A stretch of 64,000 bases of DNA from Ferrovibrio terrae (GTDB taxonomy: Bacteria > Pseudomonadota > Alphaproteobacteria > Ferrovibrionales > Ferrovibrionaceae): assembly GCF_007197755.1 (NCBI RefSeq), contig NZ_CP041636.1, forward strand, positions 248,001 to 312,000, given 5' to 3'. Below the pieces are notes generated by a model. The model worked only from the letters and a program-made list of their open reading frames with translations. It was not told the DNA's origin and ran no database searches. Position 1 is the stretch's first letter, and each line of letters opens with the position of its first letter. Positions 44,401 to 58,879 of the stretch are shown piece by piece. Made by a program: the position numbers and the translations under genes.

Positions 44401-45051
44401 TTATTCTGCAGCTTGGGCCGGCTGGATCATGCGCATGATGGCCCGCGCCCGCTTGGCCACCTTCTGCGCCGTGAAGCCCGGCTTGTAGAGCGCGCCGCCA
44501 AAGCCGAAACCGGCCGCGCCGGCTTCCAGCCAGCCATCCATGTTATCGGCATTGATGCTGCCGACCGGGATCACCGGCATGGTGCGCGGCAGCACGGCGC
44601 GCAGGCTCTTCAGCACGGCAGGGGACGCCGCCTCGGCCGGAAACAGCTTCAGCCCGTCGGCACCGGCCTCGATCATGTCAAAGGCCTCGGTCGGCGTGAA
44701 GAAGCCCGGCACGGCATACATGTCGAGCACCTTGGCCTTCTGCACCACGTCGGCACAGGCATGCGGCGAGACGGTCAGCCGGCCGCCAGCCTGTGCGATG
44801 CGCTTGACCATGGTGCAGTCCACCACGGTGCCGGCGCCAATCAGCGCCTTGTCGCCGAAATGCTTTGCCAGATTGCTGATGCTGACGAGCGGATCGGGCG
44901 AGTTGAGCGGCACTTCGATGATGCGGATGCCGGTCTCGATCAAGGCGGCACCGATTTCGACCACTTCCTCGGGCTTCACGCCGCGCAGGATGGCGATGGC
45001 GGGACTCGCCTGCAGCCAGGCGGTCAGGTCTTTTGTGTTATGGTCCTTCAT
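44401..45051 (-). CDS. dgoA: 2-dehydro-3-deoxy-6-phosphogalactonate/gluconate aldolase
   Basis: A 216-residue class I aldolase of the KDPG/KDPGal family that cleaves the phosphorylated keto-deoxy acid to pyruvate and glyceraldehyde 3-phosphate. A-I-L-R-G-V-K-P at the start, the Glu in I-I-E-V-P-L-N-S-P, and the Schiff-base Lys in A-D-G-L-K-L-F-P-A-E are present; the pattern is closer to DgoA (KDPGal) than to Eda. GAGGAGG precedes the ATG, which overlaps the dgoK stop by 4 bases. Last gene of the ABC transporter-dgoK-dgoA operon. Confidence 0.93.
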   Translation of the reverse strand: MKDHNTKDLTAWLQASPAIAILRGVKPEEVVEIGAALIETGIRIIEVPLNSPDPLVSISNLAKHFGDKALIGAGTVVDCTMVKRIAQAGGRLTVSPHACADVVQKAKVLDMYAVPGFFTPTEAFDMIEAGADGLKLFPAEAASPAVLKSLRAVLPRTMPVIPVGSINADNMDGWLEAGAAGFGFGGALYKPGFTAQKVAKRARAIMRMIQPAQAAE

Positions 45052-45950
45052 GGCGTCCTCCTCGCCGCGAGCTGCCCCAGGCGATAAAGCCCGATGGCCG
45101 CGGCATCTTCCGGCGCCACATCGGCATCGATACCGAGGAAGGCGAAAGCCTTCCGGTAACGCATCGCCAGACCGCCGGTTCCGACGATGACGACCTGTCC
45201 GGCCCAGGCGGTTGCCCGCAATTCATGGCCGATCAGGATACCTGAAAGATAGTGCGCCGCAGCCTCGGCGGAAAGCTCATTGAACAGCCTTCGCGTCCGC
45301 ACACTGAAAATGTGATGCAGCAGCCCGCCCGGCTGGCCCGACAGCGCAAGGCCGCTTTCGAAAGCGGCGGTATCCAGTTCCTCCGGCTTTGAATCAGCCG
45401 GCGCCAGCATGGCGGCGATCAGACCATGGCTTTTCAGCAGGGCGAAGACCTCGCCGGTCATCGCCGTGGCGAAACCGGCGATGCGGCCATCGCGGATCTG
45501 CACATGCTTGGAATGCGTGCCGGGCATACAGAGCGTCGCCTCTGCCGGCAAGTCGAGACCGAATATCTGGGTTTCCTCGCCGCGCATCACATCCGGATTG
45601 CCATTGGCGCCACGGCAGGACAGGCCGGGCACGATATCGGCTTGGCGGCCGCCACCGAGATCGACCGGGCAGAAGTTCGCCGCCAATTCGGACATGCCGG
45701 CCGGGCATTCGGCATAAGCAGCCTCGCGCCAGCCCTGGCGGCTGCCGACCATGCCACTGAGCAGCACAGGCGTTGTGGGTTCATCACGCAGCCAGTCACC
45801 AATCTGCTGCTGCAGCACGACGGCGTAGTCGGTGGGCGTCAGGCTGGCGATGCCCGACGCGGCCGTGCGGCGCTCGCGGAGGATGCCGTCGTCACTCAGG
45901 CGATAGGCGCGGAATCCGCTGCTGCCCCAATCAATCCCGATCACTGGCAA
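45048..45950 (-). CDS. dgoK: 2-dehydro-3-deoxygalactonokinase
   Basis: A 300-residue kinase of the DgoK family (ASKHA fold), which phosphorylates 2-keto-3-deoxygalactonate at C6. I-G-I-D-W-G-S-S-G-F-R-A-Y at the start is the phosphate-1 loop, with L-L-S-G-M-V-G-S-R-Q-G-W and P-G-T-H-S-K-H-V typical of the family. The stop overlaps the dgoA start (ATGA). It stands 24 bases after the transporter ATPase gene, so uptake, phosphorylation and cleavage are in one transcript. Confidence 0.94.
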   Translation of the reverse strand: MPVIGIDWGSSGFRAYRLSDDGILRERRTAASGIASLTPTDYAVVLQQQIGDWLRDEPTTPVLLSGMVGSRQGWREAAYAECPAGMSELAANFCPVDLGGGRQADIVPGLSCRGANGNPDVMRGEETQIFGLDLPAEATLCMPGTHSKHVQIRDGRIAGFATAMTGEVFALLKSHGLIAAMLAPADSKPEELDTAAFESGLALSGQPGGLLHHIFSVRTRRLFNELSAEAAAHYLSGILIGHELRATAWAGQVVIVGTGGLAMRYRKAFAFLGIDADVAPEDAAAIGLYRLGQLAARRTP

Positions 45951-45974: not shown

Positions 45975-47048
45975 TCAGCCGGCCAGACGCTGCCCCGAGC
46001 CGGCATCGAACAGATGCACGCGATCCAGCCGCGGCATCATCGTCATGCTGCTGCCGGGATTGACGCCGGGATGCTCGGCGAAGACACCGCAGATCTGCGC
46101 ACCGCTGAGATCGGCATAGACAAAAGTACTCGCGCCGGTCGGTTCCACCACGCTCACCGTGACCGGCAGGCCGCCGCTATCCGCGGGCGCCAGATGCTCG
46201 GGCCGGATGCCATAGACCACCGGCTGGCCGTCCTGGCCGCCGGCATGGCCATTCAGCGGCAAATCGAGGCCGGCGTCGGTGGCGACCCAGTTGCGGCCGC
46301 CCTCGCGCCGCAGCGTGCCGCGGATCAGGTTGATCGCCGGCGAGCCGATGAAGCCGGCCACGAACAAATTGGCTGGCCGTTCATAGAGTTCAAGCGGCGA
46401 GCCGATCTGCTCGACGATGCCGTCATGCATCACCACGATGCGGTCGGCCATGGTCATCGCCTCGATCTGGTCATGCGTGACATAGATCGAGGTGGTCTTG
46501 AGCTGCTGGTGCAAGGCCTTGATCTCGGTACGCATCTGCACACGCAGCTTGGCATCGAGATTCGACAGCGGCTCGTCGAACAGGAAGACCTGCGGGTTGC
46601 GCACGATGGCGCGGCCCATGGCGACGCGCTGGCGCTGGCCGCCCGACAGCTGCTTGGGATAGCGCTCGAGATAGGGATCGAGACCGAGAATCTGCGAGGC
46701 TTTCTTGACGCGTTCGGCGATCACGCCGCGCTCGGCTTTGCGCAGCTTCAACGAGAAGCCCATATTCTCGCGCACCGTCATATGCGGATAGAGCGCGTAA
46801 TTCTGGAACACCATGGCGATGTCGCGATCCTTCGACGGAACCTCGTTCACTACCTTGTCGCCAATGCGGATCACGCCGCCGGAAATCTCCTCCAGCCCGG
46901 CGATCATGCGCAGCAGGGTGGATTTGCCGCAACCGGAAGGCCCGACCAGCACGACGAACTCGCCATCGGGAATCTGGATATCGATGCCGTGAATGACTTC
47001 CAGGGCGCCATAGCGCTTCCGCACCGCCTCAACGCTCACACTCGCCAT
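45975..47048 (-). CDS. Sugar ABC transporter ATP-binding protein (UgpC/MalK type)
   Basis: A 357-residue ATPase. Walker A G-P-S-G-C-G-K-S-T, signature L-S-G-G-Q-R-Q-R-V-A-M-G-R-A, Walker B V-F-L-F-D-E-P-L-S-N-L-D and the H-loop V-T-H-D-Q are intact. The C-terminal 120 residues form the OB/TOBE regulatory domain of the MalK/UgpC/MsmX group. It powers the two permeases and binding protein encoded upstream in the same operon. The spacing of 37 bases from the permease gene and the GGGAG upstream support co-expression. Confidence 0.95.
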   Translation of the reverse strand: MASVSVEAVRKRYGALEVIHGIDIQIPDGEFVVLVGPSGCGKSTLLRMIAGLEEISGGVIRIGDKVVNEVPSKDRDIAMVFQNYALYPHMTVRENMGFSLKLRKAERGVIAERVKKASQILGLDPYLERYPKQLSGGQRQRVAMGRAIVRNPQVFLFDEPLSNLDAKLRVQMRTEIKALHQQLKTTSIYVTHDQIEAMTMADRIVVMHDGIVEQIGSPLELYERPANLFVAGFIGSPAINLIRGTLRREGGRNWVATDAGLDLPLNGHAGGQDGQPVVYGIRPEHLAPADSGGLPVTVSVVEPTGASTFVYADLSGAQICGVFAEHPGVNPGSSMTMMPRLDRVHLFDAGSGQRLAG

Positions 47049-47085: not shown

Positions 47086-47928
47086 TTACGACTTCACCGC
47101 CCCCGCGGTGAGGCCGGCCACCATATAGCGGCGGAATGCGTAATAGATCGCCGCCGGCGGCAGGGCATAGATGATCCCGGTCGCCATCAGCAGGTTCCAT
47201 GGCGCGTCGTCGGTGCTGAGAAAATGCCCGAGCGCCACTGACAGCGTGATTTCCGTATCGGCCGACAGCAGCAGGAAGGCATAGAGATACTCGTTCCAGG
47301 CCAGCAGCAGCGCGTAGGTGCCGATCGCCACCATGGACGGCATCATCAGCGGCAGGTAGATCAGCCAGAAAATCTGCAGCGGACTGGCGCCATCGATGCG
47401 CGCCGCTTCGTCGAGTTCATAGGGCAGCTTGTCGGCATATTGCCGCAGCATCCAGATCGCATAGGGACTGGCGAAGGTGACCATGGTCAGGATCAGCGAC
47501 CAGCGGCTGCCGAGCAGGCCGTACTGCCCCATCGTGGCGTACATCGGGATTGCCAGGAAAGCGGCCGGAATCAGGTAGGTGAGCAGCGCGAGGTTCGACA
47601 CGGTCTCGCCGATCCGCACCTTCAGGCGGCTGATCGCGAAACTGGCGCAGGTGCCGATGGTCAGGGTCAGCACCGCCACAGCCACGGCCACCATGGCCGA
47701 ATTGAACAGCTGCTGCCAGAAATGGCCGAGGAAGTAATGCCCCTGGGTCAGCACGGTGGTGTAGTTGTCGAGCGTAGGATTTTTCGGCCAGACCGCACCG
47801 GCAAAAGCCTCGGCCTGCGGCGTGATCGACATGACGAACAGGTGGTAGATCGGGATCAGGGTCCAGATCAGGACGAGCACGCCAACCAGAACGAGACGGG
47901 CCTCATCAAAGGCCTTGCGGGGGCTCAT
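47086..47928 (-). CDS. Carbohydrate ABC transporter permease (MalG type)
   Basis: A 280-residue membrane protein with six predicted helices and the coupling helix E-A-A-R-I-D-G-A-S-P-L-Q-I-F-W-L-I-Y-L-P-L, typical of MalG-type CUT1 permeases. Its start overlaps the stop of the first permease by 4 bases. Together with the partner permease it forms the channel for the sugar or sugar-acid ligand of the operon's binding protein. Confidence 0.94.
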   Translation of the reverse strand: MSPRKAFDEARLVLVGVLVLIWTLIPIYHLFVMSITPQAEAFAGAVWPKNPTLDNYTTVLTQGHYFLGHFWQQLFNSAMVAVAVAVLTLTIGTCASFAISRLKVRIGETVSNLALLTYLIPAAFLAIPMYATMGQYGLLGSRWSLILTMVTFASPYAIWMLRQYADKLPYELDEAARIDGASPLQIFWLIYLPLMMPSMVAIGTYALLLAWNEYLYAFLLLSADTEITLSVALGHFLSTDDAPWNLLMATGIIYALPPAAIYYAFRRYMVAGLTAGAVKS

Positions 47929-48800
47929 CGGTCTTCTCCGCGCAGGCGCTTTACCATCAGGACCACGATCGGCACCATGAAGGGCAGCGCCACGATAATC
48001 GTCGCCACGCCAGACCGCACCTCGCTCATGCCAAAGGCATAACGGATGCCGAGCGTGGCCAGCACTTGGGTGGAATCAGCCGGGCCGCCGCCGGTCAGCA
48101 GGTAGATCGAGTTGAAATCACCCAGCGTCCAGATCGTCGAGAGCAGCGTCGATGTGATGTACATGTTCCGCACGCCGGGGAAGGTGATGTAGAGGAATTT
48201 CTGCAGCCCGCTGGCGCCGTCGACATCGGCCGATTCATACAGGTCCTTCGAGATGGTCAGCCGCGCGGCGACCAGGATCAGCGTCCAGAACGGCAGATAT
48301 TTCCAGATATGAATTGTGATGATCGAGCCCAGACCGTAGACGCGGTCGAGCAGCCAGCCCGGACCGTCCTGGAAGGTGAACTGGAAGATCAGCGAATTGA
48401 TCATCCCCCATTCCGCATTCAGCATCCAGCGGAAGGACAGGATGGTGGGGATCGACGGAATCGCCCAGGGCAGGATGAAGATGAAGCTGAGCCAGCGGAT
48501 CCAGCGCCGTTCATGCACGAAAAAGCCGGACAGCAGCAAAGCCAGCATCAGTTTGATGTTTACCGCCAGGCCCAGGAAGATGACGGTATTGGCCAGCGTG
48601 CGCAGGAAGATCGGGTCGTCGAAGATGCGGCGATAGGCCTTGATCTCGGTGCCGAGATAGAGGCCGTAGCCGACCGGATAGAGCACGAAAGTCAGGAAAA
48701 TGGCGATATAGGGGATCAGCATGATGAGCCCCCAGGTCGCTTCGGCCGACATGCGGCCGGAGCGGCGGGAGGGCGCGACGTCCTGCGCGAGTGACACCAT
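47925..48800 (-). CDS. Sugar ABC transporter permease (MalF/UgpA type)
   Basis: A 291-residue permease with six helices. The coupling motif is E-S-A-D-V-D-G-A-S-G-L-Q-K-F-L-Y-I-T-F-P, and the C-terminus lists the conserved G-V-A-T-I-I-V-A-L helix. It lies 26 bases after the binding-protein gene and overlaps the second permease by 4 bases. Length and motifs fit the smaller MalF-like class without the large periplasmic loop. Confidence 0.94.
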   Translation of the reverse strand: MVSLAQDVAPSRRSGRMSAEATWGLIMLIPYIAIFLTFVLYPVGYGLYLGTEIKAYRRIFDDPIFLRTLANTVIFLGLAVNIKLMLALLLSGFFVHERRWIRWLSFIFILPWAIPSIPTILSFRWMLNAEWGMINSLIFQFTFQDGPGWLLDRVYGLGSIITIHIWKYLPFWTLILVAARLTISKDLYESADVDGASGLQKFLYITFPGVRNMYITSTLLSTIWTLGDFNSIYLLTGGGPADSTQVLATLGIRYAFGMSEVRSGVATIIVALPFMVPIVVLMVKRLRGEDR

Positions 48801-48826: not shown

Positions 48827-50197
48827 TTACTGAGCCACCAGCACCTTGATGCGGGCGATCATCTCGTCGACCGCCTGCTCCGCCGGGATTTTGTCGCCGG
48901 CGACACGTGCAATGGCGCGGCCCCAGACGTTCTCGGCGTTGATCGTGGTGAAGTGGTAATCATAGACGAACTGGAAGGGGATGGTGCCTTCCGTGATGAA
49001 CTGCTGGTAGACCTGCTTGCGATGCGGGTCCGAGCCGTCCTTCCAGAACGCACGATCAGCGCCCGCCTTGGTGACGGTGAACCAGCGGCCCAGCGCGCCT
49101 TCGACGAACGGATTGAGGTTCTCGTCTTCCAGCAGCATGGCGAGGAACTGCTTGCCCAGCGCTTTCTGCTTGGCATCGGCAAAGACCACGGCGGTCTTCA
49201 CGGCAGCCAGGTTGGGCAGCGTGCCGCCATCCGGCTTCTTGGGCCAGCCGCCGGTGATGATCAGTTCATTGTAGTTCTTGCGCGCCTGGGCATCGCCCTT
49301 GTTGGCATTGTCCAGATGCGACGACGGGATCGAGATGGTCGCGTTATGCGTCATCACGGTCGTCTTGTTGTGGAAGTTGACGTTGTTGTCGGTGTCGGTC
49401 CAGGTCACCGAGGACGGCGGCGTGCAACCCTTCAGGTTGACGTCGGCATAGTCCTTCAGCGCGTTGACCAGGCCCTGCTTCACCTTCGGATTGTCCACCA
49501 GCAGCTTGCCGTCCTTGTCGACCGGCGAAGCATCATAGGCATTCACGAAAGTCAGGAAGCTGTAGAAGGTGTCGCTGGCAGCGATCGAGCTGGGATGGCC
49601 GACGCCGTAGACGCGCTTGCCCTTCGAGCGCAGCGCCGGCTGCACCTTGTCGCACCAGAAGCTCCAGTAGCCCTTCCAGTCACTCGGGATATCCGAAGCC
49701 TTGAAGCCGGCTTCCTCGATCATGTCCTTCCAGTAGAAGGTATGAATCGTCTGCTGCTGCACCGGCATCGCGTAATAGGCCTTCTTCTTGGCCGTATTAT
49801 TTTGCAGGTACACCGTTTCCAGCGTGCCGGGCAGGAAGCGGTCCTTGATCGGCGTGATGATGTCGGTCAGGTCTTCGATCTTGTTATCGAAAGCCCACTT
49901 GCCGGTGGTGCGGAAATCGTAAGTGGTGCCGAAGCCGACATCTGGCGGCGTGCCGGCTTCGACGGCGCTCACCGTCTTGGTGATGATGTCCTCGGTGCTG
50001 AACAGGCTGAGTTGCACCTTGGCGTTATGCTTTTTCTCGAAGCGCTCGATGAAGGCGTAGAGCGCCTTGTCTTCGGCCTCGTAGAAGCCCTTGGTAAACC
50101 ACACCGTCACCGTCTGCTGGGCAGCGGCGGGCATGGCGAAGCCGGCAATGCCGGCGACTGCGGTGGACGCGAGAATCAGGCCCAATGCTTTACGCAT
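48827..50197 (-). CDS. Extracellular solute-binding protein (CUT1 family)
   Basis: A 456-residue periplasmic binding protein. The signal peptide ends M-P-A-A-A-Q-Q; mature V-T-V-W-F-T-K-G-F-Y-E-A-E and a long two-lobe body follow, as in family 1 sugar-binding proteins. GGGAGG is 9 bases before the ATG at 50197, which is preferred to an upstream frame. First gene of the ABC-dgoK-dgoA unit. A palindrome-like site (50278-50289) about 80 bases upstream resembles those before the regulator and the RraA operon. The ligand is probably an aldonic acid, its sugar or an oligomer, inferred from neighbours only. Confidence 0.93.
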   Translation of the reverse strand: MRKALGLILASTAVAGIAGFAMPAAAQQTVTVWFTKGFYEAEDKALYAFIERFEKKHNAKVQLSLFSTEDIITKTVSAVEAGTPPDVGFGTTYDFRTTGKWAFDNKIEDLTDIITPIKDRFLPGTLETVYLQNNTAKKKAYYAMPVQQQTIHTFYWKDMIEEAGFKASDIPSDWKGYWSFWCDKVQPALRSKGKRVYGVGHPSSIAASDTFYSFLTFVNAYDASPVDKDGKLLVDNPKVKQGLVNALKDYADVNLKGCTPPSSVTWTDTDNNVNFHNKTTVMTHNATISIPSSHLDNANKGDAQARKNYNELIITGGWPKKPDGGTLPNLAAVKTAVVFADAKQKALGKQFLAMLLEDENLNPFVEGALGRWFTVTKAGADRAFWKDGSDPHRKQVYQQFITEGTIPFQFVYDYHFTTINAENVWGRAIARVAGDKIPAEQAVDEMIARIKVLVAQ

Positions 50198-50277: not shown

Positions 50278-50289
50278 CTTATATATCAG
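50278..50289. promoter_or_regulatory. Candidate GntR operator, site A
   Basis: CTTATATATCAG, one base different from the perfect palindrome CTGATATATCAG found at 58735. It lies 81 bases upstream of the binding-protein ATG, in the only gap where the promoter of the ABC-dgoK-dgoA operon can sit. Confidence 0.65.
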
Positions 50290-50388
50290 TTTAGCCAGCC
50301 CTCGGCGGCCTGCCAAGCCCCGAAGCGCCGGACATCCGCCGATCTTTCGCGCACCAGTTACGCGGAGTTTACGGCCGCCTCAGCGCTG

Positions 50389-52167
50389 TCAGTGATTGTG
50401 CCGCGGCACCCCGAAGGTTTCGGCGATTTTCTGGTAGTCGGTGGCAAAGTCGAGGCAGCCGCCGGTGGACAACTGACCGACATATTTGCGCTGCAGTTCC
50501 TGCCACGGTGTCTGGTTTACCAGCTTGGGCGGCACCCAGGCCTTGCGACGCTTCTCCAGTTCCTCGGCAGAAATCATGATATCAGCGCTGCGCTTGTTCA
50601 GATCGATCCGGATCCTGTCGCCGGTCTGCAGCAGAGCAAGGCCACCGCCGACCGCCGATTCCGGCGAGGCATTGAGGATCGACGGGCTGCCGGACGTGCC
50701 GCTCTGGCGACCATCGCCGATGCAGGGCAGCAGGTTGATGCCCTGTTTCACCAGCCGGTCGGGCGGCAGCATGTTCACCACTTCCGCCGCGCCCGGGTAT
50801 CCAATCGGCCCGGTGCCGCGAATGACGAGAATGCTGTTCTCATCCACCGGCAGCTTCGGATCGTTGATCCGCTCGTGATAATCCTCCGGCCCCTCGAAGA
50901 CGATGGCGGTACCCTCGAAGGCATTCGGATCGCCGGGACGCTCGAGATACTTCTTGCGGAATTCGGGCGAGACCACCGAGGTCTTCATCACCGCGGAGTC
51001 GAACAGCGAGCCCGAAAGCACGGCAAAACCGGCTTCCGGCAGCATCGGCTGCTTATATGGCTTGATCACATTGCGATCTTCGCAGACAGCAGTCTTCACA
51101 TTCTCGCCCATGCTCTTGCCGTTCACAGTCAGCGCATCGGCATGCAGCTTGCCGGCCTCCAGCAGCTCGCGCATCACCACCGGCACGCCGCCGGCATGGT
51201 GGAAGCCCTCGCCGAGATATTCGCCGGCGGGCATCAGGTTGACCAGCAGCGGGATATCATAGCCCACCTTGTCCCAGTCGGTCACATCCAGCTCGACACC
51301 GATGTGGCGCGCGATGGCATTCAGATGCGGCGGGCAGTTGGTGGAGGCGCCGAGCGCACTGGCGGCGACGATGGCATTCTCGAAGGCCTTGCGCGTCATG
51401 ATCTTGGAGGGACGCAGGTCCTCATGCACGATCTCCACGGCGCGGCGGCCGGTTTCGTAGGCCATCTGCGCGCGCTCGCGATACGGCGCCGGGATCGAGG
51501 CGCAGCCGGGCAGCGACATGCCGAGCGCTTCGGCCATGCTGTTCATCGACAGCGCGGTGCCCATGGTGTTGCAGTGACCCGGGCTGGGCGCCGAAGACGC
51601 GACCATCTCGAGGAACTGGTCGTAGTTGATGCGGCCCGCCGCCAGTTCCTGGCGCGCGAACCACACGACGGTGCCGGAACCGGCGCGCATGCCCTTGTAC
51701 CAGCCATCCAGCATCGGACCGCCCGACAGCACAATGGCGGGAATGTCCACGGTGGCGGCGGCCATCAGCATGCCCGGCGTGGTCTTGTCGCAACCCGTCG
51801 TCAGCACCACGCCGTCGAGCGGGTAGGAATAGAGCAGCTCGGCGAGCGTCATGTAGAGCAGGTTGCGGTCGAGCGCCGCCGTCGGCCGCTTGCCGGTTTC
51901 CTGGATCGGATGGGTGGGGAATTCCATCGGGATGCCGCCGGCATCGCGGATACCGTCACGGATGCGCGTCGCCAGATCGAGATGGTGGCGGTTGCAGGGC
52001 GAGAGATCGCTGCCGGACTGGGCGATGCCGATGATCGGCTTGCCACCGCGCAGCTCGGCGAGCGTCAGGCCGAAATTCAGGTAGCGTTCCAGATACAGCG
52101 CGGTCATGCCCGGATCATGCGGGTTGTCGAACCATTCGCGGCTGCGCAGCTTTTTCTTCTCGGTCAT
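50389..52167 (-). CDS. IlvD/Edd family aldonate dehydratase
   Basis: A 592-residue Fe-S dehydratase. The three cluster cysteines are in [20 protein letters not shown] and [10 protein letters not shown]. Length and sequence fit the pentonate/hexonate dehydratases (L-arabonate, D-xylonate, D-galactonate type) better than IlvD or Edd. It should convert an aldonate to 2-keto-3-deoxyaldonate, which the kinases DgoK or the PfkB protein then phosphorylate for the aldolase. GGGAG lies 6 bases upstream. It is downstream of the GntR and DMT genes on the same strand. The exact stereochemistry of the substrate cannot be read from sequence here. Confidence 0.92.
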
Positions 52168-52203
52168 TTGGGGCTCCCTGAATCTTCTTTTCGACTTGCT
52201 GGT

Positions 52204-53097
52204 CTATTCGGCCTTGATCTGGCGTTCTCGGTGCAAAACAAACAATCCGCTGGCGACAATGATCCCTGCACCGAGCAGCATCAGCGGCGTCGGCAGATCG
52301 GCGAAGAACAGCCAGCCGAGCAGGATCGCCCAGAGCAGCGAGGTATAGGTAAAGGGCACGACCACGGCGGCCGGCGCGAGTTTCAGCGACTGGTTCATGC
52401 ACATATGGGCAGCGGTGGCGACCACGCCGATCAGCGCCAGATAGCCAATGCCGGGCAGATCCACCGGTTCCCAGCCCCAGGGCAGCGTCAGCAGCCCGAC
52501 GCCGCCCACAGCGATGCTGTGATAAACGATCAGGGACAGCGAGTTGGTTTCGCGCAGCTTGCGCGTCGCCACCATCGACAATGCATAAGTGACGCTGCCG
52601 CCCAGCGCGATCAGCGCCGGTGTCGTAAAGACGCCGCCATCGGGTTGCAGCACCAGCAGCACGCCGATAAAGCCTAAGCCGACCGCCAGGCCGCGCCGCC
52701 AGCCGACCGCCTCGCCCAGCAGCGGGATGGCCAGAACCGTCACGATCAGCGGCGTCGCCTGATAGACCGCCATGACGTCGGCCAGCGGCAGATGCCGCAC
52801 CGCGAGATAGAAGCAGAAGACCTCGGCCACGATGAAGGCAAGACGCAGGACATGCTGGCCCGGCTGATGCAACACGAAAACCTTGCGCCAGCCGGCCCGA
52901 TGAACTACCGGCAACAGGACGACCAGCGCGGTGGCCGAGCGGATGAACAGCAGCTGGCCGACGGCGACGCTCGCCACCATCCATTTGCCGAGCGCATCGT
53001 TGAAGGTGAACAGCGCGGTGCCGAGCAGCATGAAGACAATGCCGCGCCAATGGCCGGATTCCATCGCCACTCCCGTACTCACGGCGCGTTCGGACAT
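52204..53097 (-). CDS. EamA/DMT family permease
   Basis: A 297-residue protein with ten predicted helices in two EamA repeats (M-L-L-G-T-A-L-F-T-F-N-D-A-L-G-K-W-M in helix 1; P-F-T-Y-T-S-L-L-W-A-I-L-L-G-W in the second repeat, as in the RhaT/YdcZ-like DMT group). It lies between the regulator and the dehydratase genes, 2 bases after the GntR stop, so it belongs to the sugar-acid unit. It may import the acid or export an overflow intermediate. Confidence 0.9.
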   Translation of the reverse strand: MSERAVSTGVAMESGHWRGIVFMLLGTALFTFNDALGKWMVASVAVGQLLFIRSATALVVLLPVVHRAGWRKVFVLHQPGQHVLRLAFIVAEVFCFYLAVRHLPLADVMAVYQATPLIVTVLAIPLLGEAVGWRRGLAVGLGFIGVLLVLQPDGGVFTTPALIALGGSVTYALSMVATRKLRETNSLSLIVYHSIAVGGVGLLTLPWGWEPVDLPGIGYLALIGVVATAAHMCMNQSLKLAPAAVVVPFTYTSLLWAILLGWLFFADLPTPLMLLGAGIIVASGLFVLHRERQIKAE

Positions 53098-53099
53098 GC

Positions 53100-53807
53100 C
53101 TAGCCGCTCCGCCTTTCGCGGCCGCGGGCCTGTTCATGCAGAATGATCTGGTAGTCTCGCGAGGCGGCGCGGATATGCACACCCAGCAGGTTCATCGCCT
53201 TGGTCTTCTCCTTGGCGCGCAGCAGCTTCACGATATTCTGATGCTCGGCCAGTGAATCGCCGACCGTGCGTTCCTTCGACGTAACGCTGGCGCGCAAAGC
53301 CTGGATCTTCATCTCCAGCTGCTGGTGCGCCAGAGTCAGGAAGCGATTGTTGGCGCGCAGCAGAATGTGGCGATGATATTCGGTGTCGAGCCGGCGATAG
53401 GCGGGCATGTCGCCATCGGCCACCGCCTTGGCCATGCGCTTCACATTCTGCTCCAGCGCGTCGACCAGTCCGGCCTCATCGTTCTGCAATGCATCGCGCA
53501 GAGCGGCGGCCTCCAGGATGACGCGGTACTGGCACATCTCGGCGGCCTCTTCGGGCGCCAGCGAAAATACGAAACTGCCACGCTGCGGCTGAATGTCGAC
53601 CAGGCCTTCCAGCTTCAGTTGCAGCAAAGCCTCGCGGACCGGAGTCTTGGAAATGCCGAGCTGGGCCGCTAGAACATTCTCTGAAAGCGCTTCGCCGAGC
53701 GCCAGCTCACCATTGGTGATCCGCCCACGGACATGGTCTTTGACCAGTTCGGTGAGGGATTTCGGGCGCTCCAGCCGCGTTGTGCGTGCTGTGCCAGCTT
53801 TTGCCAT
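53100..53807 (-). CDS. GntR family regulator with FCD domain
   Basis: A 235-residue regulator. The winged helix is at 10-80 (G-I-S-K-T-P-V-R-E-A-L-L-Q-L is the recognition helix), and the all-helical FCD effector domain has candidate metal ligands D-x3-H in L-D-T-E-Y-H-R-H-I, H in L-A-E-H-Q-N-I and H in L-G-V-H-I-R. FCD regulators of this type bind keto-deoxy or uronic acids and relieve repression. The divergent kinase gene and near-identical palindromes at 53883, 58735 and 50278 make it the likely repressor of the surrounding catabolic units, including its own gene. Confidence 0.93.
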   Translation of the reverse strand: MAKAGTARTTRLERPKSLTELVKDHVRGRITNGELALGEALSENVLAAQLGISKTPVREALLQLKLEGLVDIQPQRGSFVFSLAPEEAAEMCQYRVILEAAALRDALQNDEAGLVDALEQNVKRMAKAVADGDMPAYRRLDTEYHRHILLRANNRFLTLAHQQLEMKIQALRASVTSKERTVGDSLAEHQNIVKLLRAKEKTKAMNLLGVHIRAASRDYQIILHEQARGRERRSG

Positions 53808-53882
53808 GACGGACGGACCTTGTTTACCTGCTCAGCCGGCAGCGTAGCAGCGGCATCCGGGTGGCATCAAGCCGGATAGTAT

Positions 53883-53894
53883 CTGATATGTCAG
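53883..53894. promoter_or_regulatory. Candidate GntR operator, site B
   Basis: CTGATATGTCAG, one base different from the perfect palindrome at 58735, between the divergent gntR (start 53807) and PfkB kinase (start 53956) genes. Placed to control both directions. Confidence 0.7.
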
Positions 53895-53955
53895 CTGGCT
53901 TGCCCTTGCCGTCCCTGTCGGCTAGGAAAGGCATGGAACAGGAGATGCCCGGACG

Positions 53956-54903
53956 ATGCCTTTCGACATCCTCTGCCTCGGCGAAGCCATGGTCGAGTTC
54001 AACCAGACCGGTGGCGCCGACAGCGACCAGTATCTGCGCGGCTATGGTGGCGATACCTCGAACTGCGCCATTGCCGCCGCCCGCCAGGGCGCCGCGTCGG
54101 CCTATTGCACGCTGGTCGGCCAGGATGTGTTCGGCGACCTGCTGCTCGATCTTTGGCAGCGCGAACAGGTGGATACCAGCACCGTCGGCCGCCGCAGCGA
54201 CACGCCCACCGCAGTCTACTTCGTGACCCATGGCGAGACGGGCCATACCTTCACCTATTATCGCAAGGGCTCGGCCGCCAGCCATATGGCCCCGGCCGAC
54301 CTGCCCGGCGAAACGCTGGAACAGGCCAAGCTGCTGCATGTGTCCGGCATCACGCTGGCCGTCAGCGAGTCTTTACGCGACACCGCGATGACCGCGATGG
54401 CCCGCATGCGCAAGGCCGGCAAGACGGTGTCCTTCGATACCAATCTGCGGCTCAAGCTGTGGCCGCTGGAAACCGCGCGCGACGCCATCCATGCCGCGCT
54501 GAAGCAGAGCGACATCGCCCTGCCAAGCCTGGAAGACGCCACGGCGCTGACGGGCCTGAGCGATCCGTTCGCTATCCTCGACCACTATCGCGGCATGGGC
54601 ATTCCGCTGGTGGTGCTGAAATGCGGTTCCGAGGGCGTGATCGTGGCGAACAGCGACGGCCGCTGGCGCCTGCCCGGCCATCGCGTGCCGACGGTGGATG
54701 CCACCGGCGCCGGCGACTGCTTCGACGGCGCTTTCCTGGCCGAACTGGTGCGCGGCGCCTCGCCGCTCGATGCCGTGGCCTATGCCAATGCGGCGGCCGC
54801 GCTCACCACCATCGGCTACGGCGCAGTCGCGCCGATCCCGCGCCGCGCCGCGGTGGACGCCTTCTTCCAGTCGGTCGGGCGCAAGGCGCCCGAACCGATC
54901 TGA
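53956..54903 (+). CDS. PfkB-family sugar kinase, 2-keto-3-deoxygluconate kinase type
   Basis: A 315-residue ribokinase-fold kinase. L-C-L-G-E-A-M-V-E-F-N-Q at the start and G-Y-G-G-D-T-S-N-C-A-I-A-A-A-R-Q-G form the substrate site, and D-A-T-G-A-G-D-C-F-D-G-A-F carries the catalytic Asp and anion hole. The N-terminus resembles KdgK (2-keto-3-deoxygluconate kinase). It is transcribed away from the gntR unit across site B. With DgoK it is the second keto-deoxy-sugar-acid kinase in the locus, so the two may serve different epimers. Confidence 0.92.
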   Translation: MPFDILCLGEAMVEFNQTGGADSDQYLRGYGGDTSNCAIAAARQGAASAYCTLVGQDVFGDLLLDLWQREQVDTSTVGRRSDTPTAVYFVTHGETGHTFTYYRKGSAASHMAPADLPGETLEQAKLLHVSGITLAVSESLRDTAMTAMARMRKAGKTVSFDTNLRLKLWPLETARDAIHAALKQSDIALPSLEDATALTGLSDPFAILDHYRGMGIPLVVLKCGSEGVIVANSDGRWRLPGHRVPTVDATGAGDCFDGAFLAELVRGASPLDAVAYANAAAALTTIGYGAVAPIPRRAAVDAFFQSVGRKAPEPI

Positions 54904-54916
54904 AAGTCAGAGATAC

Positions 54917-55765
54917 TCAACCTTTATAATTCCGCGCAGTCTGGTGCTGTTCACCCAGACCGGCGATGCCAAGATGGATCTTGTCGCCGTCTTTCAGATA
55001 GAGCGGCGGCTTCTGGCCCATGCCGACACCCGGTGGCGTGCCGGTCGAGATGATGTCGCCCGGCTGCAGCGACATGAACTGGCTCAGATAGCTGATCAGA
55101 TAGCGTACGCCGTAGACCATGGTCTTGGTCGAGCCATTCTGGAACCGCTTGCCGTTGATGTCGCAGAACATCGGCAAATCCTGCGGATCCGGAATCTCGT
55201 CGGCCGTCACCAGCCAGGGGCCGATCGGGCCGAAACTGTCGGCGCTCTTGCCTTTGGTCCACTGGCCGTGGCGCTCGGTCTGGAAAGCGCGTTCCGAAAC
55301 GTCATTGATCAGGCAGTAGCCGGCGACATGCTTCATCGCGTCGGCTTCGCTGACATAGCGCGCCACCGAACCGATCACCACGCCGAGTTCAACTTCCCAG
55401 TCGGTCTTTTCGGAATTCTTCGGGATGATCACATCGTCGTTCGGGCCGGTGATCGCCGAGGTGGCTTTCATGAAGATGATCGGCTCCGGTGGCACGGTAG
55501 CGCCGGTCTCGGCCGCATGATCGGAATAATTCAGGCCGATGCAGATGAACTTGCCGACGCCGGTGACGCAGGGTCCGATGCGCGGATTGCCCGCGACCGC
55601 CTTCAGCGCCTTGGGATCGAGCGACTTCAGCTTGTCCAGGCCGGCAGGACTGAGCGAACTGCTGCTGATATCCGGCACAACGGTGGACAGGTCACGGAGG
55701 GTGCCTGTGGCATCGAGCAGGCCGGGTTTTTCCTGGCCCACAGGGCCGTAACGCAGCAGTTTCAT
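54917..55765 (-). CDS. Fumarylacetoacetate hydrolase family protein, diketo-deoxy-acid hydrolase candidate
   Basis: A 282-residue FAH-fold enzyme. The metal ligands are in D-W-E-V-E-L-G-V-V-I-G and N-D-V-S-E-R-A-F-Q, with K-x-x-S-A-I-T-G-P-N-D and G-D-I-I-S-T-G-T-P-P-G-V-G-M-G also conserved. The last gene of unit III, next to an SDR related to 2-keto-3-deoxy-L-fuconate dehydrogenase; this pair is known from L-fucose and related pathways, where the hydrolase splits 2,4-diketo-3-deoxyacids into pyruvate and a hydroxyacid. That role fits here but substrate is inferred. AGGAG is about 8 bases from the ATG. Confidence 0.9.
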   Translation of the reverse strand: MKLLRYGPVGQEKPGLLDATGTLRDLSTVVPDISSSSLSPAGLDKLKSLDPKALKAVAGNPRIGPCVTGVGKFICIGLNYSDHAAETGATVPPEPIIFMKATSAITGPNDDVIIPKNSEKTDWEVELGVVIGSVARYVSEADAMKHVAGYCLINDVSERAFQTERHGQWTKGKSADSFGPIGPWLVTADEIPDPQDLPMFCDINGKRFQNGSTKTMVYGVRYLISYLSQFMSLQPGDIISTGTPPGVGMGQKPPLYLKDGDKIHLGIAGLGEQHQTARNYKG

Positions 55766-55788
55766 GAGTGCATCTCCTGTTCAGACAA

Positions 55789-56556
<768 letters not shown>

Positions 56557-57765
56557 TTACGCGACCGCCGGCAGGCAGGCCGGACCGATCGGTTCAAAAC
56601 TCTTGTAGGTGAGGATGAATTCCTGGTGCCCCAGGCCTTCGGATCTCGTCATCTCGCCGGCGCCGACCTGCTTGATCAGGTCGAAGATTTCGCGGCCCAC
56701 AGTATCCAGATCGGCCGTGCCTTCCAGAATCCGCCCGGCATTCACGTCCATGTCGTCGGCCATGCGCGCATAAGTGCGCGGATTGGCGCAGACCTTGATC
56801 ACCGGGGCCAGTGCCGAACCGACCACTGAGCCGCGTCCCGTGGAAAACAGGATGACATGCGAGCCGCAGGCGATGAGCTCGGCGATTTCGGCATTATCGC
56901 TGATATTGGGAAAACCGAAACGCACCTCGCCGTCGGGCACGACATCGAGCAGATACAGGCCGCCACGCGGCGGGATGTCTCCCGGCTTGATGATGCCGCT
57001 GATCGGCGAGGCACCGCTCTTGGCATAGGCGCCAAGCGACTTCTCCTCAATCGTCGTCAGCCCGCCATCGGCATTGCCCGGCGCGAAGCTGGGATAACCC
57101 AGCGTTTCGTAATAGCGCGCGGCTTTCGCCACGCAGGCCTTCAGCTCGTCGCCAAGTTCCGGCGTGATGGCGCGTTCGGCCATCCAGCCTTCCATGCCGA
57201 TCAGTTCGCCGGTTTCCTCGAAGATCGCCGCGGCTTTTTGTTCCACCAGGAAATCGAAGGCACGGCCCATCGCCGGATTGGCAGTGAGACCGGACGTGGC
57301 ATCCGAACCGCCGCAAATCGTGCCGACCACCAGTTCGGACACGTCCATCGGCTCGGTCGGCTGCGCCGCCAGTTCCTTCAGCTGCGCTTCAACCCAGTCG
57401 CGGCCCTTCTGGATGGTGGCGCGGGTGCCGCCGTTTTCCTGGATCGCCAGCAGTTGCACCGGACGGCCGCTGTCTTTGATCGTGCGTTCCAGCAGCTTCT
57501 TGTTGAAACCCTCGCAGCCCAGCGAGACCAGCAGCACGGCGCCCACGTTGGGATGGGTGCAGAGCCGCTGCATCATCTTCAGCGCATAGGCATTGGGATA
57601 GCAGCCGGGAAAACCGATCACATGCGCGCCCTGTTCACGATAGGGCCAGGCGATCTCTTTTGAAACGTGATGGGCGCATTCGACCAGATAGGCCACGGCC
57701 ACATAATTGCGGATGCCCTTGCGCCCATCGGAACGGCGCCAGCCGCGCATTGCGATCTCGGTCAT
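56557..57765 (-). CDS. UxaA-family dehydratase, large subunit
   Basis: A 402-residue protein of the altronate/galactarate dehydratase C-terminal family, here encoded apart from its N-terminal SAF domain. V-A-Y-L-V-E-C-A-H-H-V at the start, G-F-P-G-C-Y-P-N, L-V-S-L-G-C-E-G-F-N, V-G-T-I-C-G-G-S-D-A-T-S-G-L-T-A-N-P-A-M-G and S-T-G-R-G-S-V-V-G-S hold the cluster and substrate residues typical of UxaA/SuyB/GarD. Its start overlaps the SAF gene by 4 bases. It should dehydrate a sugar acid to the 2-keto-3-deoxy compound. Sulfolactate sulfo-lyase (SuyAB) has the same split layout, but the neighbours speak for sugar acids. Confidence 0.91.
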   Translation of the reverse strand: MTEIAMRGWRRSDGRKGIRNYVAVAYLVECAHHVSKEIAWPYREQGAHVIGFPGCYPNAYALKMMQRLCTHPNVGAVLLVSLGCEGFNKKLLERTIKDSGRPVQLLAIQENGGTRATIQKGRDWVEAQLKELAAQPTEPMDVSELVVGTICGGSDATSGLTANPAMGRAFDFLVEQKAAAIFEETGELIGMEGWMAERAITPELGDELKACVAKAARYYETLGYPSFAPGNADGGLTTIEEKSLGAYAKSGASPISGIIKPGDIPPRGGLYLLDVVPDGEVRFGFPNISDNAEIAELIACGSHVILFSTGRGSVVGSALAPVIKVCANPRTYARMADDMDVNAGRILEGTADLDTVGREIFDLIKQVGAGEMTRSEGLGHQEFILTYKSFEPIGPACLPAVA

Positions 57766-58070
57766 GGGGCAGCCTCCACCGGCACGGTACTGGGCATGTA
57801 GTCGCTGGCCAGGTTGTGGCTATGCACATAGCCGCCATGCGGGATCGCTTGCGTGGCGCTGCCGATCGGCGCGCCATATTTCACGATCCGCTCGCCAGCC
57901 GCGATATCGCGCAGCGCGATCTTGTGGCCAAAGCCCATCGCACGCTGCAAGGTCACGCTGCGGCCCGCCACCTGCAGGGCCGTGCCGACGGCAATCTCCA
58001 GCCGCGCCACGGCGATATTGTCGCCCGGCGCGAGCACCAGCAGACGCGGGTCTGTCTCAGAATTTGCCAT
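57762..58070 (-). CDS. UxaA-family dehydratase, small SAF-domain subunit
   Basis: A 102-residue SAF-domain protein, the separate N-terminal half of a UxaA-type dehydratase. L-L-V-L-A-P-G-D-N-I-A-V-A-R near the start, G-F-G-H-K-I-A-L-R-D-I-A-A-G-E-R-I-V-K-Y and P-I-G-S-A-T are characteristic. It overlaps the RraA stop by 14 bases and the large subunit by 4, so the subunits should be made in equal amounts. It completes the active site of the large subunit. Confidence 0.92.
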   Translation of the reverse strand: MANSETDPRLLVLAPGDNIAVARLEIAVGTALQVAGRSVTLQRAMGFGHKIALRDIAAGERIVKYGAPIGSATQAIPHGGYVHSHNLASDYMPSTVPVEAAP

Positions 58071-58722
58071 AACGCTTGTAGGCTTCCTGCGGGTCCATGC
58101 CGGCCATGATGTGGCGCCGGACTTCGCCTTCGGTGCTCATCACCTCTTCGGTGCGGGTCACCACGGCCTCGGCCATGGCTTTGGGGATGATCACGATGCC
58201 GTCGCGATCGGCGATCACATAGTCGCCGGTACAGATCGTGACGGTGCCGATGGTGATCGGCGCCCCGAAACTGTCGGGCACCCAGCGCGCCACGATGTCG
58301 GACGGCGTGTAGAAACTGCACCAGGTGGGGAAATCGATCTCGTCGATCATCGCCGCATCGCGGCAACCGCCATCGACAATGTAGCCGCGCACGCCCTTGA
58401 GCTGCAGCGCCGAGGCCGACAGCTCGCCCATCAGCGCCACTTCCTTGTTGTTCGGCTGGCAGATCACCACCTTGCCGCCCGGTGCCTTCGACAGCACGCC
58501 GGTCCATTCCAGCAGGGTTTCATGCGCCGAGCGCGTACGGTCGATATGGCCGCTGACGGTCCAGATCTCGCCGGCCAGCGTATGTTTGATGTTCAGCGGG
58601 CGGATATCGTGGGGCAGCAGGCAGTTGTCATGCCCCTGGGCGCGCAGCACGTCATGGACGGCGGAGGCGTAGCAGCGGCTCAGGCGATCCGCGAGCGGAT
58701 TCGCCGGCAGTGTCCCGGACAT
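58057..58722 (-). CDS. RraA-like protein (HMG/CHA-type aldolase family)
   Basis: A 221-residue RraA-fold protein. The Gly-rich and catalytic part is V-R-G-Y-I-V-D-G-G-C-R-D-A-A-M-I with the Arg-Asp pair used by class II pyruvate aldolases of the 4-hydroxy-4-methyl-2-oxoglutarate type, followed by F-P-T-W and the C-terminal G-D-Y-V-I-A-D-R-D-G-I-V-I-I-P. True RNase E inhibitors are shorter. In this operon an aldolase, or an isomerase or decarboxylase of a keto-acid, is more plausible than a regulator of RNase. GGGAG is 5 bases before the ATG at 58722, and the palindrome CTGATATATCAG is 13 bases upstream. Confidence 0.87.
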   Translation of the reverse strand: MSGTLPANPLADRLSRCYASAVHDVLRAQGHDNCLLPHDIRPLNIKHTLAGEIWTVSGHIDRTRSAHETLLEWTGVLSKAPGGKVVICQPNNKEVALMGELSASALQLKGVRGYIVDGGCRDAAMIDEIDFPTWCSFYTPSDIVARWVPDSFGAPITIGTVTICTGDYVIADRDGIVIIPKAMAEAVVTRTEEVMSTEGEVRRHIMAGMDPQEAYKRYGKF

Positions 58723-58734
58723 CTTCACTCCCAT

Positions 58735-58746
58735 CTGATATATCAG
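58735..58746. promoter_or_regulatory. Candidate GntR operator, site C
   Basis: CTGATATATCAG, a perfect 12-bp palindrome immediately upstream of the Shine-Dalgarno of the RraA gene, first gene of unit III. Sites A and B differ from it by one base each. Confidence 0.75.
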
Positions 58747-58879
58747 TTGTCGCAACTGTAGCCAGATTCTTGCGAGCTGGCTAGAGCATGCCGACATGAC
58801 TGTTGCTGACACCCGGCGGGCGGGCGGATAATCCAGCCTGTCGGGAGCCAGGCAGGCTGCACCGGAAGGACATACCGCC

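Follow-up and report, generated by a model that had tools for sequence, protein, structure and literature searches.

A sugar-acid locus with three copies of a palindrome

The 64,000-nt stretch of the Ferrovibrio terrae genome analysed here (the window; NCBI RefSeq assembly GCF_007197755.1, contig NZ_CP041636.1, forward-strand positions 248,001 to 312,000) contains a catabolic locus for sugar acids in which the 12-bp palindrome CTGATATATCAG recurs at three places, all given here in the minus-strand reading. The perfect palindrome (site C, 58735–58746) lies 12 nt before the start of rraA. Copies with a single mismatch were found at 50278–50289 (site A, CTGATATATAAG), 80 nt before the start of a solute-binding protein gene and upstream of the ABC-dgoK-dgoA operon, and at 53883–53894 (site B, CTGACATATCAG), in the gap between gntR (75 nt away) and pfkB (61 nt away). 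A position check placed each of these 12-mers exactly where a first-pass annotation of this DNA had reported it. The annotation had also held that each lies in a gap able to carry the promoter of a catabolic unit; sites A, B and C do occupy the only three gaps of at least 60 bp inside the catabolic locus, a count that depends on the gene list used for that locus.

Operon A, on the minus strand, begins with the ABC solute-binding protein gene (48827–50197; identified by profile search, with the ATG behind GGGAGG chosen by us as the start). It continues with two permease genes (47925–48800 and 47086–47928) and an ATPase gene (45975–47048), all three open reading frames named from reading the sequence, whose order is retained in clade 1 of the genus (defined below). 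A dgoK-like kinase gene (45048–45950) follows, an open reading frame with no NCBIfam match that was named from the earlier annotation and from reading of the sequence. The operon ends with dgoA, encoding 2-dehydro-3-deoxy-6-phosphogalactonate aldolase (44401–45051; NCBIfam PRK09140, 263 bits against a cut-off of 207). Operon B, also on the minus strand, comprises gntR (53100–53807), encoding an FCD-type GntR regulator; a gene for an EamA-family transporter (52204–53097; profile search); and ilvD, encoding a sugar-acid dehydratase of the IlvD/Edd family (50389–52167), whose nearest solved chains are the galactonate dehydratase 7m3k and the IlvD/Edd dehydratase 5oyn. Divergent from it, on the plus strand, is a PfkB-family kinase gene resembling those for 2-keto-3-deoxy-gluconate/galactonate kinases (53956–54903; 199 bits, under the NCBIfam cut-off of 400). 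Operon C, on the minus strand, runs from rraA, encoding an RraA/aldolase-family protein (58057–58722), through uxaS and uxaL, encoding the SAF-domain small subunit (57762–58070) and the large subunit (56557–57765) of a split UxaA/galactarate-type dehydratase, all three identified by profile search, to genes for an SDR dehydrogenase (55789–56538) and an FAH-family hydrolase (54917–55765). The SDR protein scored about equally against human DHRS6 (2ag5, 329 bits) and L-2-keto-3-deoxyfuconate 4-dehydrogenase from bacteria (8xwk and 8y4j, 324 bits). The FAH protein is near L-2,4-diketo-3-deoxyrhamnonate hydrolase (333 bits to 8gsr; NCBIfam, 427 bits against a cut-off of 500).

Judged from these assignments, 2-keto-3-deoxy sugar acids would be both formed and broken down by the enzymes of the locus, along more than one route, the precise substrate lying beyond what sequence can tell. 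Among solved chains, the SDR and FAH proteins of operon C are close in sequence to the 4-dehydrogenase and hydrolase of the non-phosphorylating L-fucose/L-rhamnose pathway (FucC-FucF-FucG; LRA5-LRA6; PMC11199699). Unlike in that pathway, however, the dehydratases here are of the IlvD and split UxaA types, with additional, phosphorylating routes provided by DgoK/DgoA and the PfkB kinase. Neither a fucose dehydrogenase nor a lactonase was noticed among the named genes of the locus, although no search was aimed at them.

Within the window, only sites A, B and C matched the palindrome with up to two mismatches. Shuffling the window 100 times gave a mean of 0.85 such matches, and three were reached in 4 of 100 shuffles; taken alone, this count is weak evidence. 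Since the window contains 31 perfect 12-bp palindromes, a perfect palindrome is not special by itself. The best 12-mer common to the three gaps had two mismatches summed over them, a value reached in none of 200 dinucleotide shuffles (three mismatches were reached in 3 of 200).

Distribution and conservation of the palindrome in the genus

The reversed pattern of the 12-mer served as the control for the genome counts. The F. terrae genome (G000; 4,264,634 bp, one contig) contains one exact copy of the palindrome and eight copies with at most one mismatch, compared with two for the reversed pattern. Three of the eight fall within 8,469 bp, in this locus; by our own arithmetic, the chance of any such cluster among eight random places is approximately 7e-4. 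The first-pass annotation had looked to a genome scan allowing one mismatch to show whether copies concentrate here, and this was so for these three, while the other five lie elsewhere: three before genes whose relatives retain the site, one inside a gene (L008) and one in an ambiguous gap (L005). With up to two mismatches, the same genome had 80 sites against 70 for the control. This tier is therefore noise, no regulon claim was drawn from it, and a wider genomic regulon at this threshold was rejected.

Ten genomes of the genus together contained 80 sites with no more than one mismatch, where the control pattern gave 15. The corresponding counts were 12 and 25 in seven genomes from other genera of the family, in which the best homologue of the regulator, if any, has at most 35% identity. 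The family genome G004, which encodes a 41% homologue with an upstream site, had seven against one. Thirty-five of the 80 genus sites lie on six promoters: those of site C (10), site A (9), site B (4), a distal dehydrogenase gene (5), a carboxylase-like gene (5) and the gene for a paralogous regulator, GntR2 (2). Because only these 35 could be assigned, the 80 are not to be counted as 80 operators.

The genus was divided by gene content into clade 1 (G000, G008, G010, G012 and G013) and clade 2 (G005, G006, G007, G009 and G011); homologue matches were shown only above 38% identity in one genus comparison and above 50% in another. Clade 1 has the entire locus as in the window. In clade 2, gntR-eamA-ilvD and pfkB occur together, and an SDR-FAH operon lies on a different contig; three of its five assemblies are fragmented, so that the distance between gntR and SDR-FAH is sure only as far as the contigs show, and the contigs of G006 are long. 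In all five clade 2 genomes the exact palindrome precedes the SDR gene of this operon (the FAH gene was observed behind it in G006). An equivalent of site C with at most one mismatch was thus present in 10 of 10 genomes, before rraA in five and before the SDR gene in five. Nine of the ten genomes had an equivalent of site A in front of ABC genes. In clade 1 it stands ahead of the solute-binding gene, and in G005 and G006 ahead of ATPase-dgoK-dgoA genes. In G007 and G009 it precedes a binding-protein-like open reading frame, which in G009 alone was observed to be followed by ATPase, dgoK and dgoA genes. No ABC gene turned up in the 18 kb around gntR of G011. The gap between gntR and pfkB held an equivalent of site B with at most two mismatches in all ten genomes (one mismatch in four, two in six). 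Two features of these operons were observed in passing. The gntR match in G011 (L021; G011:C30:23068-23760) holds one in-frame TGA. In G005, G006 and G011 (L174, L178 and L175, respectively), genes for a different split UxaA-type dehydratase (34–41% identity) sit directly behind ilvD in the gntR operon; the clade 1 copy sits in operon C.

At each of five clade 1 promoters, 11 of the 12 site columns were invariant, versus 71–95 of 170 flanking columns, the flanks being partly coding. Recurring changes within the site were G to C or T at the third base of the half-site and T to C or G at the fifth; the fourth changed once, from A to G. A weighted matrix showed a preference for A/T just outside the 12 bp, suggesting an operator of about 16 bp; examples of such flanks are ATCTGATATATCAGAT in Limnohabitans and ATCTGATATCTCAGAT in Polaromonas. 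The comparison of orthologous promoters, put forward in the annotation as a check, therefore went in its favour: across the ten genomes, the palindrome is retained at the same operons and its flanks diverge.

The regulator and its recognition helix

The gntR product scored 64.4 bits against PF00392 (GntR winged helix; cut-off, 27) and 77 bits against PF07729 (FCD effector domain; cut-off, 24.3). In an alignment with chain 3fms, the Asp and three His of the metal-binding FCD site have counterparts in the regulator. The winged helix, FCD domain and (predicted) palindromic operator are shared with DgoR, UxuR, ExuR and LldR, FCD-type GntR regulators for sugar acids and organic acids. Scores against the NCBIfam equivalog models were far under their cut-offs, at 22.5 of 442 bits for UxuR, 26.3 of 396 for ExuR, 27.3 of 311 for LldR and 29.5 of 301 for GlcC; no DgoR model was among the 19 NCBIfam families listed, and whether the library includes one was not checked. 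The closest named relatives of the regulator are from Ferrovibrio (98% identity in L039). Autoregulation is usual among FadR-subfamily GntR regulators. The position of site B, a single site within a divergent gene pair, is an arrangement analysed for GntR regulators in a published survey (PMC4494728).

The predicted operator deviates from the consensus of its subfamily. BioR, another FCD-type regulator with an operator that departs from the consensus, controls biotin genes. The FadR subfamily consensus is TKGT/ACMA, which retains GT/AC (PMC4494728, section 10), whereas the core here is TGAT/ATCA; the three sites and the genus matrix have a core like GAT/ATC, if these are operators. Because known operator exceptions occur in the subfamily (PMC4494728), the protein was kept in the FadR/FCD subfamily. 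A parallel in that survey is the BioR type (TTATMKATAA), likened by operator description alone, which also lacks GT/AC but has a different half-site. Among the matches listed in a literature search, no titles or abstract openings described this regulon, and TGATATATCA with GntR and GATATATC with 'GntR family' returned no match; most subscription papers lie outside the coverage of these searches. TGATATATCA alone does occur in the literature, one occurrence being a primer.

The recognition helix of the regulator, SKTPVRE, carries Lys at helix-turn-helix (HTH) position 38. In FadR this position is Arg45, which makes a specific contact with G, and a base-contacting Arg is likewise listed for AraR (PMC4494728, Table 1 and section 5). 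For 59 homologues, GntR2 among them but none from the orthologous group, the 245 bp around the inferred start (200 upstream and 45 downstream) were searched. The 59 remained of 71 loci once those had been excluded that gave no match at 1e-8, matched only from beyond residue 25 or offered too little upstream sequence; for plasmid homologues, 21 stretches were used of 64 and 55 matched records in overlapping lists. A palindrome with at most two mismatches lay upstream of 19 of the 26 Lys38 homologues and of none of the 29 Arg38 homologues, all of which were at 4–5 mismatches (the reversed control gave mostly 4–6). Among the remaining homologues, a site was present in 0 of 2 with Thr, 0 of 1 with Ser and 1 of 1 with Gln. 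The homologues are not independent (two are from Bosea and several from single genera), so a Fisher value overstates the certainty. When the comparison was restricted to homologues of 33–41% identity, the counts were 8 of 12 for Lys38 and 0 of 22 for Arg38; overall similarity is thus not a full explanation of the link between helix and operator, and shared ancestry within the Lys clan is a possible reason for it.

The regulator has Asn at position 28, Pro at 40 and Gln at 59. In the GntR survey, Arg is the commonest residue at position 28 and Gly at 59, Pro is common at 40, and the three positions are correlated with the neighbouring half-site base (PMC4494728; numbering as we read it). From the pattern at position 38 we infer that Lys38 with A takes the place of Arg38 with G. 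On this basis we tentatively suggest an unrecognised branch of FCD regulators in which a change from Arg to Lys at position 38 accompanies a change from G to A in the core, giving TGATATATCA, a proposal that we put at somewhat under even chances. If true, it would allow those GntR proteins of as yet unassigned function in the alpha- and betaproteobacteria that regulate sugar-acid loci via this operator to be picked out by protein sequence. Upstream of the Arg38 homologues, the GT/AC motif itself showed no clear excess: with a 2-nt spacer it was exact in 2 of 29 (shuffle mean, 0.33) and within one mismatch in 10 of 29 (7.0), and with a 3-nt spacer it was exact in 0 of 29 and within one mismatch in 4 of 29 (7.5). 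If the proposed code is true, replacing Lys with Arg at position 38 would swap preference between TGATATATCA and TGGTATACCA DNA. Such a link would make it possible to predict this operator for functionally uncharacterised FCD regulators, and it bears on how GntR specificity changes at a base that the survey treats as conserved core. One Lys38 homologue, in L216 (Sinorhizobium meliloti pSymB), has CTGATATCTCAG upstream and sits beside SDR, glycerol dehydrogenase and D-threitol dehydrogenase genes, a hint that sugar-alcohol loci, too, may come under this operator clan.

Promoter geometry, candidate regulon members and proposed regulation

At site A, a promoter scan called one sigma-70-like pair in the region (shuffle mean, 0.0), TTGGCA-17-TAAACT at 50288–50316 on the minus strand, a consensus match rather than proof. 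The last two bases of its -10 element lie inside the operator, and both clades retain the CTTGGCA stretch. Before the rraA operon, a putative -10 element at 58755–58760 (minus strand; TACAGT here, TAAAGT in most relatives) was identified by eye from the alignment. A GCTA block stands directly upstream of the operator both at site C (GGCTAAAGTT) and at the distal dehydrogenase gene (CGCTAGGGTT). This block may be the -10 element, in which case both operators would lie near the start of transcription. The predicted geometry favours repression. Were the regulator instead an activator that recruits RNA polymerase from the palindrome when inducer is present, the pfkB promoter would fit, where by eye the site lies upstream of a possible -35 element. 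However, operator A overlaps the -10 element, and the sites at C and the dehydrogenase gene fall between the inferred -10 element and the start codon, at 12–16 nt from the latter; activation is accordingly improbable.

The distal gene (G000:C1:3874807-3875742) encodes a D-2-hydroxyacid dehydrogenase (Pfam 2-Hacid_dh) and lies 3.57 Mb from site C along the contig, or 0.7 Mb if the contig is circular. A site 15–16 nt before its start was found in all five clade 1 genomes, as an exact palindrome with altered flanks in G013; in G008 the gene matches in two pieces. Similar partners adjoin related regulators elsewhere. In Limnohabitans (L051), the exact CTGATATATCAG lies between a gntR homologue and divergent genes for a TRAP-type transporter (named by reading), a 2-hydroxyacid dehydrogenase, RraA, PfkB and an SDR protein. 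On Polaromonas and Acidovorax plasmids, the regulator is adjoined by genes for a TRAP transporter, RraA, a sugar kinase and a C-terminal binding protein, which in Polaromonas is assigned by Pfam to the 2-hydroxyacid dehydrogenases. In Pantoea At-9b, genes for a C-terminal binding protein, RraA, DgoK and DgoA adjoin it, and no site was found upstream of its gntR. These recurring partners support the dehydrogenase gene as a true member, and the regulon probably extends past the locus with at least one distal member.

A propionyl-CoA carboxylase beta-like gene (L006) is a weak candidate member. A copy, CTGATATATGAG, lies 147 nt upstream of it at G000:C1:3538782; the site is present in 5 of 5 clade 1 genomes (exact in two) and 0 of 5 clade 2 orthologues, and its distance to the start is 124–175 nt, with a block shared by all ten genomes lying below it. 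In clade 2 (L087, L108, L121 and L126), CTCATATATCAG or its complement was observed upstream of or beside a gene for an NMT1-type (TAXI TRAP-like) binding protein, the Pfam assignment coming from L108 alone. The 10–12 kb around the copies at this gene in G006 and G009 yielded no homologue of gntR or GntR2. Copies also recur in clade 2 upstream of two SDR genes (L088, L091 and L114; L112, L117 and L132), one of them divergent from a permease-like gene; these are possible clade 2 regulon members.

In the mechanism that we propose, a GntR dimer would bind the palindrome at its own operon (gntR-eamA-ilvD) and the divergent kinase gene, at the ABC-dgoK-dgoA operon and at the rraA-uxaSL-SDR-FAH operon, and in near relatives also before the unlinked D-2-hydroxyacid dehydrogenase gene. 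Bound GntR would block RNA polymerase, repression being most likely because operator A overlaps the -10 element and the sites at C and the dehydrogenase gene lie near the inferred start of transcription. An intermediate of sugar-acid breakdown, most plausibly a 2-keto-3-deoxy acid, would bind the FCD domain and release GntR, thereby inducing uptake and several pathways to pyruvate at the same time. The sites are placed before these operons, are conserved there and co-occur both with the regulator and with its type of recognition helix; from these patterns we infer that GntR binds and represses, and from the enzyme functions which class of compound would induce. It is highly probable, on sequence comparison, that the FCD-type GntR encoded at 53100–53807 uses CTGATATATCAG as its operator, acting as an autoregulated repressor of the three locus promoters and the distal dehydrogenase gene that is released by a sugar-acid intermediate. 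The operator assignment within this reading appears well supported by comparison. The first-pass annotation had named the local FCD regulator as the protein tying the three units together. Orthologous-promoter conservation, the promoter overlap at site A, the autoregulatory position and the tracking of the recognition helix all speak for that part, but its outline was too narrow, the regulon probably being larger. That a single keto-acid inducer might act on all three units, as the annotation also proposed, is a suggestion drawn from the enzyme functions. The outcome is a concrete candidate regulon, with a named regulator, operator and target list, in a little-studied genus.

Several observations weigh against this reading. 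Since gntR is present in 10 of 10 genus genomes, there is no negative control within the genus, and a rough gene caller put 24 of the 80 genus sites far within predicted genes, a further 21 being neither there nor among the 35 assigned. The promoter scan called nothing at sites B and C, and the arrangement at pfkB speaks less clearly for repression. No site within two mismatches precedes the dehydrogenase gene in the 4 of 5 clade 2 genomes that could be tested. Among the Lys38 homologues without the palindrome, four of the 26 are at 4–5 mismatches and three at 3 mismatches, and the sole Gln38 homologue, in L069 (Rhodovulum robiginosum, 28% identity), is preceded by CTGATATATTAG, a copy with one mismatch; no other non-Lys homologue of the 59 has a site. 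Finally, GntR2 may bind the same sites as the gntR product.

Were the palindrome a chance or DNA-structural repeat with no regulator, the 31 perfect palindromes, the weak window count and the sites deep within genes would all be expected. Against this stand conservation at orthologous promoters on different contigs, an excess only where a close gntR is present, and the helix link. A chance repeat is thus extremely improbable and was rejected on conservation and the helix link, for which the window count alone would have been insufficient.

GntR2 (G000:C1:1293385-1294029) has 42% identity to the gntR product and the same SKTPVRE helix, and CTGGTATATCAG lies 75 nt upstream of its gene, between it and a TRAP binding-protein gene. 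The palindrome could then be a shared operator of several related FCD regulators, the gntR product, GntR2 and others, forming an overlapping network with no private regulon. Beyond the site before GntR2, such sharing would fit the conserved clade 2 copies before the NMT1-type and SDR genes, where six longer stretches searched by tblastn at 1e-6 contained no homologue of gntR or GntR2 (L161, L162, L166, L168, L169 and L177), and the more distant homologues (28–35%) in G006, G007 and G009. We consider it unlikely, however: of the ten genus genomes, G000 and G010 alone were found to encode a second homologue of about 42% identity, whereas the sites accompany an orthologous gntR in 10 of 10. A GntR2-like homologue is thus not a constant partner of the sites.

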